DNA from: Bifidobacterium pluvialisilvae
GTDB lineage: Bacteria; Actinomycetota; Actinomycetes; Actinomycetales; Bifidobacteriaceae
Reading direction: 5' to 3'
Assembly (NCBI RefSeq): GCF_019331695.1
Contig: NZ_JAHBBI010000003.1
Location: forward strand, 62,001 to 126,000
DNA length: 64,000 nt
Below the pieces are notes generated by a model. It searched no databases. It was not told the DNA's origin and worked only from the letters and a program-made list of their open reading frames with translations. Below are positions 8,693-52,272 of this stretch, piece by piece. Numbering within the stretch: position 1 is the stretch's first letter; each line of letters opens with the position of its first letter. Made by a program: the position numbers and the translations under genes.

Positions 8693-8906
8693 GGAATCGG
8701 CCCTCGGCCGATGCGATGACATTGCGGACTGACGTCCGCGATCTCTCCCTCCGTCACGCCTTACGGCGTGCCACCTCCCTCGTCAGAGGGAGGTCGATAC
8801 CGCGAAGCGGCGCCCTCTGACGAGGGAGCTGTCGAGCGTAGCGAGACTGAGGGAGAGACCCGGCCGTAAGGCCGAGACAACACCGCATCGGCCGAAGGCC
8901 GATTCC
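8693..8906. repeat. MITE-like palindromic element (full copy)
   Basis: A 214-bp element bounded by 23-bp inverted repeats (8693-8715 and 8884-8906, one mismatch). Inside are nested inverted repeats: TCTCTCCCTC pairs with GAGGGAGAGA, and CTCCCTCGTCAGAGGG pairs with CCCTCTGACGAGGGAG (16 bp perfect). The whole can fold into a long branched hairpin. Related half-copies occur at 37655-37742 and 38497-38594. There is no coding capacity, so if mobile it would depend on a transposase elsewhere. It sits in the gap between the surface-protein gene and the first GH32 gene. Confidence 0.75.
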
Positions 8907-16244: not shown

Positions 16245-17128
16245 GACATGTCCTTTTCCATGTAGATAGGGGACTGGGCGATCTCGTCGGCCGTGGTGTT
16301 CCACAGGGCGTCGAGGAACGCCGTCTGGAACGATCCGGGGCCGTTCGCCTCGCGTTCGGCGCTGTCCGCGGCGCGGTTGTAGTGCAGGGCGGCGGCGATG
16401 GCGGCGGTCAGCGGCTCGGCCACGCAGGCGTAGGTGGCGGTGACGCCGCCGAGCGAGCAGCCAGCGCCGGTGATCTTGGTCATCCACGTGCTGCCGCCGG
16501 GCAGCCGATAGCCGTCCGTGCCGTCGGTCACCAGGTCGACGGCACCGGAGACCGAGACCACGCCTCCCGTGAACCGCGCCAGCGCGCGGGCGGCGGGGAT
16601 GGCGGCGTCCACCTCGTCGCTGGCCTCCACGCCGGCCCGGCTGCGCGAGTCGGCGCCGTCGAGACCCCAGATGCCGGCGAGGGCGATGGCCTCGGAGGCG
16701 TTGCAGCGGATGATGGTCGGGGGAGTGGCGGCGAACGCGCGCAGGATGGCGCCGCGCAGTTCGCCGGCGCCGGCGCCCACGGGGTCGAGCACCCAGGGCA
16801 GGCCGTGCTCGGCGGCGTCGCGGGCCGCGGCGGGGTACTCGGTGCGGAACGGCTCCAGCAGGGTGCCCATGTTGATGTAGGTGGCCCCGGACGCTCCGCG
16901 GTCGAGCGCGGCGGCTTCCTCGCCGCTGTAGTGCATGGCTGCGGTGCCGCCCACGGCCAGCTGCGCATTGGCGACGAGGTTGATGGTGACGAAGTTGGTG
17001 AGCGACTGCGCCAGCGGCGTGGTGCGCCGCACGGCCGCCACCGCCTCGGCGACGGACTGGCGCAGCGGGCTGCCGATGCCGAGGTTGCGGTGGGCCTCCG
17101 GGGTCGCGGATCGTGTTGTCGAAGTCAT
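16241..17128 (-). CDS. thiM: Hydroxyethylthiazole kinase ThiM
   Basis: Phosphorylates 4-methyl-5-(2-hydroxyethyl)thiazole in thiamine salvage. The 295 residues carry 'SLTNFVTINLVAN', 'MHYSGEEAAAL', 'INMGTL', 'WVLDPVGAGA', 'IIRCNASEA' and the catalytic 'ITGAGCSLGG' loop typical of ThiM. The start ATG at 17128 has GGGAGG, which is itself part of the TPP riboswitch. The open frame runs on upstream across the antisense of glyS, but nothing there is ThiM-like. Cotranscribed with thiE. Confidence 0.95.
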   Translation of the reverse strand: MTSTTRSATPEAHRNLGIGSPLRQSVAEAVAAVRRTTPLAQSLTNFVTINLVANAQLAVGGTAAMHYSGEEAAALDRGASGATYINMGTLLEPFRTEYPAAARDAAEHGLPWVLDPVGAGAGELRGAILRAFAATPPTIIRCNASEAIALAGIWGLDGADSRSRAGVEASDEVDAAIPAARALARFTGGVVSVSGAVDLVTDGTDGYRLPGGSTWMTKITGAGCSLGGVTATYACVAEPLTAAIAAALHYNRAADSAEREANGPGSFQTAFLDALWNTTADEIAQSPIYMEKDMS

Positions 17129-17131
17129 CGA

Positions 17132-17226
17132 ATGCCTCCCTACGATGGTGTTAGCCAACAGGTTCCAAGGGTCAGGCCGTGGCCTTCTCAACCTTGCGGC
17201 CCGAGCCGCGCCGGTTCCCCTGGCAT
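17132..17226 (-). promoter_or_regulatory. TPP riboswitch (THI element) of thiM-thiE
   Basis: On the minus strand the leader has the conserved THI-box parts in order: a GGGGAACC P2 strand, a GC-rich P3 region, GGTTGAGA, ACCCTTGGAACCTG and GCTAACACC followed by GTAGGGA. ATGCC (17222-17226) can pair with GGCAT (17132-17136) to close P1. The Shine-Dalgarno GGGAGG lies within that closing region, six bases before the thiM ATG, so TPP binding should hide the ribosome site: translational control. Confidence 0.93.
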
Positions 17227-17365
17227 GATGCTCCATAACGTATGCGGCGGCTAGGACAGTGGCGGTGCGCGCGGCCGGCGCGGCGACGGGAATGCGTGTC
17301 AGTGCTGGGCGGTAGAGTCGGTGCCGACTATTTCGACATCGTTGACCATATATAGAAGGTGGATT

Positions 17366-22453: not shown

Positions 22454-23749
22454 ATGGCCCTGTTGACACCGAATGATATTCGTAACCACATTTTCCAGAC
22501 GGTTCGTTTCAAGGAAGGCTACGACATCGACGAGGTCGATGACTTCCTGGATGAGGTCACCGAAACGGTAGAGGCACTCGGCAGCCAGGCAGCGCAGTCG
22601 GGTTCCACCCAGTCCCTCGGTCCGGATGTGGCGGCGCTGAACGAGAAGATCTCGCAGCTGACCAACGAGAACGGGAAGCTGCAGAACGAACTTGCCCAGG
22701 CCAAGGCGGCCCCCCAGCAGCAGACCTCCTCCGCGGATGCCGAGCAGGTGCAGGCGCTCATCAGCCAGAACGGCCAGCTCAAGTCCCAGGTCGACCAGCT
22801 CAACGCCCAGATCGACCAGCTCACCGCCCAGTCCGCCAAGAGCGACGGCATGTCCGCGCAGTTCGAGGCCGAGCGTCGCCGCTCCGCCGAACTCGCCAAC
22901 CAGCTGCAGGCCGCCAAGCAGCAGATCGCCATGCTGCAGCAGTCCCAGAACTCCTCCAACGGCCAGACCGCCCAGGCCAACAACCAGATCGCCACCCTCA
23001 CCCGCGAGCTCGAAGCCGCCAAGACGCGTGAATCCCAGCTGCGCGAACAGCTCTCCAAGGTCGAACCCTCCACCGAGACCGGCAGCCTGCGCAAGATCGC
23101 CGGTGCCGGTGCCGGCGCCACCACCGAGCCCGAACGCGCCACCGCGATGCTCGCCCTCGCCATGCAGCTGCATGACCAGTATGTCGACAAGGGCAAGGCC
23201 CAGCGTGACCAGCTCATTTCCGAAGGCCAGGCCAAGCACGAGGACGTCATCCAGAAGGCCGACGCCTACAGCAAGCGCATCCATCAGGACGCCGACGCCT
23301 ACTCGCAGCGCGTCCACTCCGAGGCCGACGCCTACAGCAAGAAGACCCGCAGCGAGGCCGACGACTACTCGGTGAAGACCCGCAACCAGGCCGACCAGTA
23401 CTCCAAGAAGACCCATGAGGAGACCGAGGCCTACAGCAAGCAGGTGCGCAGCGAGGCCGACGCCTACAGCGCCCAGACCCGCCAGACCGCCGAGGAGTCC
23501 GCGAAGAAGACCCGCAACGTGGCCGACCAGTACGATCGCCGCACGCGTGACGCCGCCGACGACTACGCACAGCAGGTCAAGGAGAAGCTGTACAACGACT
23601 CCAAGGTCATCGAGGGCAACATCGAGGGCCTCAAGCAGTTCGAAGCCGAGTACCGCAGCCGCCTGACCGAGTTCCTCGGCCAGCTGACCACGCAGATCTC
23701 GGACACGAACAACTACGCGACCATGCAGGACAACCCGCTGAGCAAGTAG
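22454..23749 (+). CDS. divIVA: DivIVA/Wag31-like polar growth protein with 11-residue repeats
   Basis: The actinobacterial polarity determinant, recruiting cell-wall synthesis to poles and the septum. The N-terminal membrane-binding domain is canonical ('LTPNDIRNHIFQTVRFKEGYD', 'EVDDFLDEV'). A Gln-rich coiled-coil fills the middle. The 431-residue length exceeds the usual 250-300, owing to ten tandem 11-residue units of the type ADAYSKKTRSE (residues about 269-378). The end 'TTQISDTNNYATMQDNPLSK' is unrepeated. The ATG at 22454 gives the conserved MALLTPND start. Confidence 0.95.
   Translation: MALLTPNDIRNHIFQTVRFKEGYDIDEVDDFLDEVTETVEALGSQAAQSGSTQSLGPDVAALNEKISQLTNENGKLQNELAQAKAAPQQQTSSADAEQVQALISQNGQLKSQVDQLNAQIDQLTAQSAKSDGMSAQFEAERRRSAELANQLQAAKQQIAMLQQSQNSSNGQTAQANNQIATLTRELEAAKTRESQLREQLSKVEPSTETGSLRKIAGAGAGATTEPERATAMLALAMQLHDQYVDKGKAQRDQLISEGQAKHEDVIQKADAYSKRIHQDADAYSQRVHSEADAYSKKTRSEADDYSVKTRNQADQYSKKTHEETEAYSKQVRSEADAYSAQTRQTAEESAKKTRNVADQYDRRTRDAADDYAQQVKEKLYNDSKVIEGNIEGLKQFEAEYRSRLTEFLGQLTTQISDTNNYATMQDNPLSK
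23258..23587 (+). repeat. Ten tandem 33-bp units within divIVA
   Basis: Ten in-frame 33-bp repeats encode 11-residue units beginning AD-x-Y-S and ending in a basic/acidic pair. An 11-residue period fits a right-handed or hendecad coiled-coil. Individual units vary at the third base and at several codons, so the array is not a recent expansion. Confidence 0.9.
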
Positions 23750-38496: not shown

Positions 38497-38594
38497 GGAA
38501 TCGCCTTCGGCGATGCGGTGTCCATAGCGGCTTCGCCGCGGTCTCTCCCTCCGTCACGCCTTACGGCGTGCCACCTCCCTCGTCAGAGGGAGGT
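38497..38594. repeat. Half-copy of the MITE-like palindrome downstream of hisA
   Basis: Matches the left half of the element at 8693-8906, including a stretch of about 50 identical bases from TCTCTCCCTCCGTCACG to CGTCAGAGGGAGGT. Its outer end, GGAATCGCC followed by GGCGATGCG, is next to the hisA stop. It is inverted relative to the half-copy at 37655-37742. Confidence 0.75.
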
Positions 38595-40357: not shown

Positions 40358-41704
40358 ATGTCACACATGGACAGACAGCAGGAGTTTGCTTTGCGCACGG
40401 TCGAAGAACGCGACGTGCGCTTTATTCGTTTATGGTTCACCGACGTTCTCGGCACCCTCAAATCAGTGGCCATCGCGCCCGCCGAACTCGAAGCCGCCTT
40501 CGAAGAGGGCCTCGGCTTCGACGGCTCCGCCATCGAAGGACTCACCCGAGTCTCCGAAGACGACATGATCGTCAAGCCCGACCCCTCCACCTTCCAGATC
40601 CTCCCATGGCGGGGCGGCCCCCAAGGCACCGCCCGCATGTTCTGCGACGTGCTCACCCCCGAAGGCGAACCCAGCCTCGGCGACCCGCGCCACGTGCTCA
40701 AGCGCACCCTCGCCAAAGCCAAGGAAAAAGGCTTCACCTTCTACATCCACCCCGAAATCGAGTTCTACCTCTTCGAACTCCAGGACGACTGGTCCAAGTC
40801 GCCCAAGCCCGTCGACGAAGGCGGCTACTTCGACCACGTGCCGCGCAGCCCCGGCATGGACTTCCGCCGCGCCACCGTCAACATGCTCGAACAGATGGGC
40901 ATCTCCGTCGAATACTCGCACCACGAAGGCGGACCCGGCCAGAACGAGATCGACCTGCGCTACGCGGACGCCCTCACCATGGCCGACAACATCATGACCT
41001 TCCGCACCGTCGTCAAGGAAATCTCCCTCGAACGCGGCATCCACGCCAGCTTCATGCCCAAGCCGTTCTCCAACCACCCCGGCTCCGGCATGCACACCCA
41101 CCTCAGCCTCTTCGAAGGGGACGCCAACGCCTTCTACGAAGCCGGCCAGGAATTCAACATGTCGCTCACCGCGCGCCAGTTCGCCGCCGGCATCCTCTAC
41201 CACGCCGCCGAAATCACCGCCGTCTGCGACCAGTTCGTCAACTCCTACAAGCGCCTCTGGGGCGGCAACGAAGCCCCCAGCTACATCTGCTGGGGCCACA
41301 ACAACCGCTCCGCACTCCTCCGCGTGCCCCAATACAAGCCCGGCAAAGGCAACTCCGCGCGCATGGAGTTCCGTGCCCTCGACCCCGTCACCAACCCCTA
41401 CCTCGCCTATTCGCTCCTCCTCGCCGCCGGCCTCGACGGCATCGACAAGCAAATGACCCTCGGCGAACCCACCAGTGACGACGTCTGGGAGCTCACCGAC
41501 GAGGAACGCCAGGCCATGGGCATCGAACCCCTGCCCGACTCCCTCGACACCGCCCTCAAGATCATGGAGAAATCCGACTTCGTCGCCGACGTCCTCGGCG
41601 AACACGTCTTCCGCTACTTCCTGCGCAACAAGCGCAAGGAATGGGAGGACTACCGGGGGCAGATTACTCCCTACGAACTCCAGCACTACCTCCCCAAGCT
41701 GTAG
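40358..41704 (+). CDS. glnA: Glutamine synthetase (GSI, alpha-like)
   Basis: Assimilates ammonia into glutamine. About 448 residues with 'LGFDGSAIEG' metal-site region, 'EIEFYLFE', 'HHEGGPGQNEIDLRYADAL', 'NHPGSGMHTHLSLF' and 'NSYKRLWGGNEAPSYI'. The short length, and no adenylylation-loop motif that I can see, fit the GSI-alpha group rather than the adenylylated GSI-beta enzymes. The start is uncertain among GTG 40337, ATG 40358 and ATG 40367, none with a strong Shine-Dalgarno sequence; alignment favours the last two. The structured element beginning at 41710 directly follows. Confidence 0.95.
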   Translation: MSHMDRQQEFALRTVEERDVRFIRLWFTDVLGTLKSVAIAPAELEAAFEEGLGFDGSAIEGLTRVSEDDMIVKPDPSTFQILPWRGGPQGTARMFCDVLTPEGEPSLGDPRHVLKRTLAKAKEKGFTFYIHPEIEFYLFELQDDWSKSPKPVDEGGYFDHVPRSPGMDFRRATVNMLEQMGISVEYSHHEGGPGQNEIDLRYADALTMADNIMTFRTVVKEISLERGIHASFMPKPFSNHPGSGMHTHLSLFEGDANAFYEAGQEFNMSLTARQFAAGILYHAAEITAVCDQFVNSYKRLWGGNEAPSYICWGHNNRSALLRVPQYKPGKGNSARMEFRALDPVTNPYLAYSLLLAAGLDGIDKQMTLGEPTSDDVWELTDEERQAMGIEPLPDSLDTALKIMEKSDFVADVLGEHVFRYFLRNKRKEWEDYRGQITPYELQHYLPKL

Positions 41705-41709
41705 AAAAT

Positions 41710-41806
41710 CCGTTTCACGGAGCGTTATCCGGCTATGGGAAACTCGACGTACTTTTGTACGCCTTCGTTTCCCAACGCCGGATACCGCACGCGTGAAACG
41801 GCTTTT
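41710..41806 (+). terminator. Structured 3' element after glnA, unit A1
   Basis: Four nested, perfectly paired stems: CCGTTTCACG/CGTGAAACGG (41710-41719 with 41792-41801), TATCCGGC/GCCGGATA (41726-41733 with 41777-41784), GGGAAAC/GTTTCCC (41737-41743 with 41767-41773) and CGTAC/GTACG with a TTTT loop (41748-41761). A T-run follows the outer stem. It begins five bases after the glnA stop. It probably ends the glnA transcript, but is far more elaborate than an ordinary terminator and shares its core with the elements after ldh. Confidence 0.8.
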
Positions 41807-41811
41807 TACTT

Positions 41812-41894
41812 AGGCGGTAAAAAACTCGACGTACTCTTGTACGCCTTCGTTTTTGTCCATGGCGATACCGCACACATGGAACGGCTTTTTTTTT
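41812..41894 (+). repeat. Second, partial unit A2 of the glnA 3' element
   Basis: A tandem relative of A1 with the same core (TCGA, CGTAC-TCTT-GTACG, CCTTCG). GCGGTA pairs with TACCGC and AAAAAC with GTTTTT. The right arm GATACCGCACA...GGAACGGC plus a run of nine T nearly copies A1, but the matching left outer arm is missing. It follows A1 within 6-10 bases. Confidence 0.7.
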
Positions 41895-41919
41895 ACTTTG
41901 GCGGTGAAAAAACGGGGAA

Positions 41920-50036: not shown

Positions 50037-51047
<1,011 letters not shown>

Positions 51048-51048
51048 T

Positions 51049-51155
51049 AAAAAAAGACTCCCACGGAGTGTCATCCGCGTTGCGGAGAGTTCGACGTACC
51101 TTCGTACGCCTTCACTCTCCGCGCCTTGATGACACACACGTGGGAGTCTTTTTTT
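51049..51155 (+). repeat. Structured 3' element after ldh, unit B1
   Basis: Nested perfect stems: a 17-bp outer stem from A7GACTCCCACG to CGTGGGAGTCT7 (51049-51065 with 51139-51155), GTGTCATC/GATGACAC (51068-51075 with 51128-51135), GCGGAGAGT/ACTCTCCGC (51082-51090 with 51114-51122) and CGTAC/GTACG with loop CTTC (51095-51108). The architecture and core equal those of unit A1 after glnA, while the stem sequences differ. The A/T-bounded outer stem could end transcripts from both strands. Confidence 0.85.
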
Positions 51156-51438
51156 ACCTCAGTCGGGTCCACGGCGTTTGTGCGTGCGCCTTCATTCTCC
51201 GCGCCTTGTTGACACACGCATCGGTCCCTTTTTTACCTCAGTGGGATTCTGTGGAGTCATTTTCGTTGCGGAGAGTTCGATGTGCCTTCGTACGCCTTCA
51301 CTCTCCGCGCCTTGATGACACACACGTGGGAGTCTTTTTTTACCTCAGTCGGGTCCAAGGCGTTTGTGGACCTTGGCGTACTTTTCGTATGCCTTTGTTT
51401 CCCGCGTCTTGATGACATGCGCGCGGGATGTGTTTTTT
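51156..51438 (+). repeat. Three further units (B2-B4) of the ldh 3' array
   Basis: Three more relatives follow, each ending in a T-run: B2 (about 51160-51236, core degenerate), B3 (about 51245-51341) and B4 (about 51351-51438). The block 51268-51366 repeats 51082-51180 almost exactly at an offset of 186 bp, so B1-B2 were duplicated to give B3-B4. In B3 the core left arm is TGTGC instead of CGTAC, which still pairs with GTACG through wobbles. In B4, GGCGTAC pairs with GTATGCC. No protein-coding frame is credible here. Confidence 0.8.
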
Positions 51439-51528
51439 ACCGTGCTAGCAGCCCGTGATGCGATTCGCATTGCGGGATTGTTGTATTCCTTCCGACGCGG
51501 TAAACACGCCTGATGCAGCAGCGGCGTT

Positions 51529-52272
51529 TTACAGCTTACGGAGGACTGTCACGACCTTCCCCATGATCGTCGCATTGCTGCCATCGATGGGGGAGTATGC
51601 GGGATTGTGGGGAATGAGCCACACATGCCCGTTCTCCTTGCGGAAGGTCTTCACCGTCGCCTCCCCGTCGAGCAGGGCTGCGACGATATCGCCGTTCTCG
51701 GCCTCGTTCTGCTCTCGGACGACGACGAAGTCCCCATTGCAGATGGCGGCATCGATCATGGAATCGCCATGCACCTCCAGCATGAACAGGTGCCCGGCCC
51801 CGGTCAGCCGTTCCGGCAGCCGCATGACGTCGTCCACATGTTGTTCCGCGGTGATGGGGACGCCGGCGGCGATACGCCCGACAAGGGGAACGTCGTGCGA
51901 TTGCATGATCGACTCGCTGGAATCGGGGGAGGGGTCGGTATCGGCCTGCACCGCGAACCCAAGGACGGCGGCGTCGTTCCGATTGCCGCGACGCAGGGCG
52001 TCATGCTGGTCGGACAGCAATTCGATGGCACGCCCCTTGTTGGCGCTGATACGGATGAACCCCTTGTCCTCCAACGCCTGAAGCTGATGCTTGACTGAAG
52101 ACGGGCTTTTCAGGCCGACGGCCTCGCCGATCTCGCGGAACGAGGGGGCGAATCCCCGTTCCCGCACATGGGAGCGGATAGCCGCGAGCACATCGCGCTG
52201 ACGCTCGGTGAGGGCATCCTCGCCGTGGCCGAGGGAAGGGTGCCCGTTGCTGGTGAAAGAAATGGTGCTCAC
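51529..52272 (-). CDS. lexA: SOS repressor LexA
   Basis: The SOS regulon repressor, 247 residues. The winged helix N-terminus ('LTERQRDVLAAIRSHV', 'APSFREIGEAVGLKS') precedes the self-cleavage AG bond in 'GRIAAGVPI' and the catalytic Ser and Lys in 'VHGDSMIDAA' and 'GEATVKTF'. GTG start at 52272 with AAAGGAG. It is divergent from the LysM gene, with probable LexA boxes in the 148-bp gap. Autoregulation follows from that. Confidence 0.97.
   Translation of the reverse strand: MSTISFTSNGHPSLGHGEDALTERQRDVLAAIRSHVRERGFAPSFREIGEAVGLKSPSSVKHQLQALEDKGFIRISANKGRAIELLSDQHDALRRGNRNDAAVLGFAVQADTDPSPDSSESIMQSHDVPLVGRIAAGVPITAEQHVDDVMRLPERLTGAGHLFMLEVHGDSMIDAAICNGDFVVVREQNEAENGDIVAALLDGEATVKTFRKENGHVWLIPHNPAYSPIDGSNATIMGKVVTVLRKL

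Follow-up and report, generated by a model that had tools for sequence, protein, structure and literature searches.

REP and BIME elements are short palindromic sequences scattered between genes, many of them 3' of genes, and some stabilize mRNA. The attC sites of integrons are imperfect palindromes with variable stems and fixed unpaired bases that lie behind stop codons in gene orientation, and their complementary strand is the more stable one, and paired core sites (RYYYAAC / GTTRRRY) mark their outer ends. Intrinsic (Rho-independent) terminators place a hairpin, at times with a T-run, behind the stop codon. The portion available of a study on template switching reports multi-base compensatory changes in RNA hairpins arising from a single template-switch event (PMC8794818, Monttinen and Loytynoja 2022), and the available portion of a transcript-end study in Bifidobacterium breve reports that ends often fall at GC-rich stem-loops not classed as Rho-independent terminators (PMC5746004), which we take only as a lead for the role of the element described here.

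The window analyzed in the present study, a 64,000-nt stretch of Bifidobacterium pluvialisilvae DNA, contains hairpin units behind ldh and glnA that are members of an apparently undescribed family of ~108-nt hairpin elements; the observation made in the preliminary description is real and larger than first noted. The units resemble REP/BIME with RAYT in being short palindromes dispersed intergenically, unlike which they are recognizable by geometry instead of stem sequence, stand in sense orientation at stop codons, and occur in eight element-rich genomes devoid of Y1_Tnp; a further likeness is the GGAG, one of the REP tetranucleotides, at the foot of the element's inner hairpin. With attC sites, as generally understood, they share variable stems, fixed unpaired bases, adjacency to stop codons, and a more stable complementary strand, and they differ from these in that integrase matches stay below cut-off, gene cassettes are lacking, and the hosts are fixed housekeeping genes. 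Intrinsic terminators are similar in lying as hairpins behind the stop codon with an occasional T-run, whereas the present units span ~108 nt with conserved internal loops and in many carriers have ordinary terminators further downstream. Multi-base compensatory changes from one mutation event are common to our units and the hairpins of PMC8794818, which in the portion available belong to rRNA and other RNA genes, whereas ours form a dispersed bacterial gene-end family with the host's stop codon in one arm. The features of the window are listed below, with bit scores from a covariance model (R1) and z values from folding against shuffles.

50085..51047, + strand: L-lactate dehydrogenase ORF (ldh), with its stop codon at the foot of B1
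51047..51157, + strand: B1, the intact element after ldh, with 19-nt perfect arms at 51047-51065 and 51139-51157; its parts are, in order, outer stem, GGAG/CRCACRC loop, stem 2, loop 2, stem 3, TCGA/CCTTC loop, and terminal hairpin
51095..51108, + strand: terminal hairpin of B1, CGTAC-CTTC-GTACG, between TCGA (51091-51094) and CCTTC (51109-51113)
51172..51234, + strand: B2, degenerate, chiefly the 3' part; repeat family D1 at 78% identity; z -1.45
51234..51342, + strand: B3, degenerate or chimeric; 64.9 bits with R1; z -2.35
51375..51437, + strand: B4, strongly degenerate; repeat family D1 at 63% identity; z -1.72 for 51340-51445
41700..41809, + strand: first glnA unit; 93.7 bits with R1; stop codon TAG (41702-41704) at the foot of the 5' arm
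41820..41854, + strand: core of the second, degenerate glnA unit; partial R1 match of 32.9 bits; z -1.86 for 41805-41900

B1, which the model scores at 113.5 bits over 51046-51156, folds at -64.8 kcal/mol (z -11.7) and the first glnA unit at -59.2 kcal/mol (z -9.8), with 0 of 200 shuffles equaling the native energy in either case; the order and core that the preliminary description had seen as common to the glnA and ldh units are indeed shared, and these two units have the folds it described. Unlike them, B2, B3, B4, and the second glnA unit do not fold far better than shuffles when taken alone. Degenerate relatives of B1 continue to ~51440; among these, B2 gave no match in an R1 search at E 0.01, and B3 is 97% alike to B1 in its 3' part and differs in its 5' part. 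The change from CGTAC to TGTGC reported earlier for B3 is present, and two G-U wobbles would let it pair with GTACG, but it sits in a degenerate unit (64.9 bits, against 113.5 for B1), and the range first proposed, 51082 to 51308, covers real units but has limits that cut through both B1 and B3. Elsewhere in the window, a 59-nt palindromic intergenic repeat unrelated to the hairpin family occurs at 8736-8794 and 38536-38594 (98% identical) and contains the inverted repeats CTCCCTC ... GAGGGAG and CGCC-TTA-GGCG, and an ORF holds 33-nt tandem repeats at 23258-23533 that look in-frame and have a coiled-coil-like spelling.

An exact pattern of the core matches 30 times in the 2.66-Mb genome, and the reversed pattern 0 times. 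R1 was built from 22 of these 30 copies, the eight with odd spacing being left out, and returned at least 45 matches in the same genome; two of these are the same site read in reverse, and a few are remnants of the core. All counts of matches are minimum values, as no more than 150 candidates per genome were scored within the genus, 25 across the family, and 9 across the phylum. In the other eight genomes of the genus, it found from at least 30 to at least 46 matches in seven and a single one in G003, which is also alone in the genus in having a Y1 transposase. Matches occur in at least 56 of 151 genomes and 5 of 16 genera of Bifidobacteriaceae; across the phylum, among the candidates scored, matches came from 2 of 396 genomes, being the source genome itself and G496, whose 37-bit match (L097) fits both strands and was taken for a chance palindrome. 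Presence is patchy also among close relatives, the guaA unit being found in 4 of 8 genomes of the genus (G000, G004, G002, and G006) and absent from G007, G008, G001, and G003. In Rfam 15, the only feature of the window to reach its gathering threshold is a TPP riboswitch on the minus strand (17120-17231, 60.5 bits), and a search of 51000-51560 at E values up to 5 returned two unrelated matches far below threshold. No description of the element was found in the open-access papers searched, and the portions available of PMC2864571 and PMC8040213 do not mention it. The covariance model, Rfam search, and survey of actinobacterial genomes that had been proposed as a check yielded a family with supported covariation (see below), and the units stand as a candidate to which no Rfam family corresponds. 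Neither result that was to refute the proposal, a significant Rfam hit or a lack of covariation, was obtained.

Intact units each form a single long hairpin whose geometry is fixed and whose ~17-bp outer stem is nearly free in sequence. Its internal loops are, from the outside in, GGAGYG/CRCACRC, a loop centered on NCGTT/GCCTT (in either of two forms), and TCGA/CCTTC below CGTAC-YNTY-GTACG. The distance from the GAGYG-type motif to the core is 29 nt in 24 of the 30 exact-core copies and that from the core to CRCACRC is 24 or 25 nt, and the outer stem measures 15-18 bp in 62 of 87 measurable copies and exceeds 19 bp in none (this count and that of T-runs cover 87 of 94 rows, the seven without anchors being omitted). 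Over 94 distinct copies, G20, G22, TCGA, CCTTC, CRCAC, and the letters of loop 2 hardly vary, all four Watson-Crick pairs are freely exchanged in the stems, and the outer arm sequences differ at every locus. One subtype (L017, L096, L131, L174, L175, and others) has an imperfectly paired stem 3 of GCTCCTCRG / CCTYGGTGC, and its recurrence at unrelated genes and in different species suggests the spread of a subfamily.

Placement was assessed for the best 30 of 45 own-genome matches and 32 of the 38 loci L059-L096 (six omitted): a sense-strand ORF of at least 100 codons ends at -8 to +15 of the model start in 53 of these 62 loci, compared with 7 of 62 for the antisense strand in the same 24-nt window and 61 of 1454 and 73 of 1552 random positions, and of the nine loci lacking such an ORF end, five are second units in arrays. 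An ORF end at this position puts the stop codon inside the 5' arm or at its foot, opposite its complement in the 3' arm. At pntB, the final coding codons are also inside the stem, and the C-terminus of PntB is unchanged in species that have no unit there (e.g., L225 and L238). The Ldh protein has 80 relatives, with 98% identity to Bifidobacterium species, the nearest named ones at that identity being B. catulorum, B. simiarum, B. saimiriisciurei, and B. primatium; 63 of the 80 orthologous loci were scored with the model (17 left out), and in 22 of the 63 an element starts ~1 base or less from the ldh stop codon, with stem sequences that differ between loci yet remain paired. At the ldh locus of B. 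catulorum (L098, from 3961), the element is reduced to its 5' half and diverges past the core. The host genes, read from translated ORFs, include nrdE, trpS, murA, guaA, nusG, araA, pntB, glgP, acnA, purD, glnA, aspS, upp, dapB, and ldh, and have no common pathway. Where units form arrays, the gene-proximal one scores higher in 11 of 11 cases in the source genome and in 12 of 14 in relatives (exceptions L074 and L092), a pattern in favor of selection acting at the gene end, although these scores may be flattered by a model made mostly from such units and the proximal unit could simply be the youngest.

Pairing is maintained throughout these changes in stem sequence, as the preliminary description had stated. 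The covariation score was 0.533 against 0.186 when shuffled for the 22 copies of alignment A1, which were picked by the exact core pattern so that an invariant core was forced, and 0.613 against 0.178 when shuffled, with slid controls at or below 0.114, for 94 distinct copies (alignment A3, fitted to the model with copies above E 1e-10 omitted), in which both sides have changed in 33 of 37 pairs. If pairing were kept for the sake of a sense-strand RNA, G-U would be tolerated far above A-C, and the element has no such excess: the 3452 stem cells of all 94 copies include 70 G-U and 61 A-C, with 54 and 60 after removal of two Y-Y mismatch columns, 38 and 36 at interior pairs, and 12 and 33 in the 76 cleanest copies. 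An RNase P control from Bifidobacteriaceae gave 26 G-U and 6 A-C (5 of 7 alignments), a ratio that differs from 70:61 at a Fisher P of 0.005, the cells not being independent. Folded with RNA parameters, 5 of 94 copies are more stable as the sense strand, and with DNA parameters 3 of 94, compared with 7 of 7 for RNase P; it is the loops and not the stems that make the strands differ. In 34 pairs of closely similar copies, which overlap and are not independent, 150 double changes (50 of them transversional) stand against 63 single ones, 21 of the latter producing G-U and 17 A-C; the event and strand tests excluded the two Y-Y mismatch columns.

Two copies retain traces of how such double changes may arise. 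The pntB loci L219 (G001) and L220 (G008) are 97.7% identical over the upstream 300 nt and have the 3' arm in common, and in L220, the 5' GGAG loop has been rewritten as the exact complement of that arm, the fold being -75.0 kcal/mol compared with -56.3 in L219; in the second unit of L090, the complement of CCTTC stands in place of TCGA. Such rewriting of an arm to match its partner is the mark of template switching. A scan for further rewriting, confined to four fixed patterns, found one new case, for a total of two, and did not find L220 again. A template switch during replication rewrites an arm in one step, so a mutation process in DNA is able to preserve the pairing, and this suggests that slips in DNA copying, besides selection on RNA structure, keep the arms matched. 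Arrays at pntB additionally contain the final codons of the gene a second time, with ELIA-stop in synonymous codons, and the ELIA-stop of the second unit in the source genome is spelled as in the gene end of the sister genome G006, which suggests recombination between units or species.

We tentatively read the family, from sequence comparison, as Bifidobacteriaceae-specific gene-end hairpins that form a predicted mRNA 3'-end module, with stems renewed by template switching. This is the best of the readings considered because of the sense placement and the better preservation of the gene-proximal unit, and the placement makes it likely that the hairpin acts as RNA. The patchy distribution and the absence of a pathway common to the host genes count against this reading. 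The main rival, a possible but less probable one, is an element working at the level of DNA, in which the template strand would fold as single-stranded DNA during replication and be recognized by its structure, as attC and REP are, the mRNA hairpin being a by-product. The equality of G-U and A-C in the stems and the lack of a sense-strand preference in stability are at least as compatible with a DNA-level role; such a role would also give dispersal, tandem arrays, and stem renewal, and it agrees with a more stable antisense strand under both sets of parameters, with the observed tandem arrays and patchy occurrence, and with the pntB arrays whose second ELIA-stop copies match a sister genome's gene end. 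Against it stand the strictly sense orientation at stop codons, gene sites that are common across species, the origin of the strand difference in loops rather than stems, and the outcome of searches for a mobile element, which gave no support for a transposase, integrase, virus, or plasmid: Y1 (RAYT) transposase was found in none of the 8 element-rich genomes and, within the genus, only in G003, integron integrase (TIGR02249) in 0 of 9 genomes above the cut-off, with weaker matches also in all 14 controls, the exact core in no viral contig of IMG/VR, and plasmids gave only two 30-nt matches.

The original interpretation, that of a classical cis-regulatory or structured RNA in which selection on RNA pairing alone makes the stems covary, agrees with the covariation, the loops conserved at fixed spacing, and the sense orientation, but we consider it quite improbable in view of the indifference between G-U and A-C, the less stable sense strand, the many double transversions between close copies, and the two template-switch traces; the covariation had been taken as the classic sign of selected RNA structure, and on these grounds, that it proves such structure is not supported. 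Somewhat less improbable, though still unlikely, is a species-specific intrinsic transcription terminator. A-runs and T-runs flank the stem foot in several copies, among them B1 and the first glnA unit, and an ordinary terminator is detectable within 250 nt behind only 4 of 27 own-genome elements, by a detector that finds about half; a T-run of at least four at the foot is, however, present in just 22 of 87 copies. The detector, positive at 15 of 30 element-free ldh loci against a background of 1 in 30 (twice), reports a terminator-like site behind the element in 12 of 22 ldh carriers, a frequency like that behind the non-carriers' stop codon (15 of 30), in 6 of 9 pntB carriers compared with 1 of 21 listed non-carriers (one of which, L216, holds a variant unit that escaped the search pattern), and in 1 of 5 guaA carriers compared with 12 of 25 non-carriers. 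With T-runs rare and results mixed among ldh, guaA, and pntB, the equation of the element with a terminator was rejected, and a terminator role fits some copies only.

Under the reading as an mRNA 3'-end module, the transcribed element would form the beginning of the 3' UTR, where the hairpin would bar 3'-to-5' exonucleases and so set or protect the mRNA end, sometimes helped by a T-run or a terminator behind it, and the three open loops would offer a putative binding site for a factor. Template switching, of which there are two direct traces, would copy one arm onto the other and largely keep complementarity, and the 3' arm would in this way follow the changing end of the host gene. A bolder proposal, which we put forward as speculative, is that the element is defined by structure and free of sequence: only loop motifs and helix lengths would be fixed, the ~17-bp stem would be copied by template switching from the last bases and stop codon of the host gene and rebuilt for each gene, and a putative factor sensing loop spacing would read it as RNA or single-stranded DNA. 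Were this so, covariation alone would mislabel such elements as RNA families.

Whether or not the elements are active in mRNA ends, tests of strand asymmetry (G-U versus A-C, and sense versus antisense stability) are cheap checks for other candidates. If they are not, the family would be a case of textbook covariation produced by a DNA mutation process, with a bearing on how RNA families are called; if they are, tens of bifidobacterial housekeeping genes would carry a 3'-end device specific to the lineage, and a putative protein would read it.
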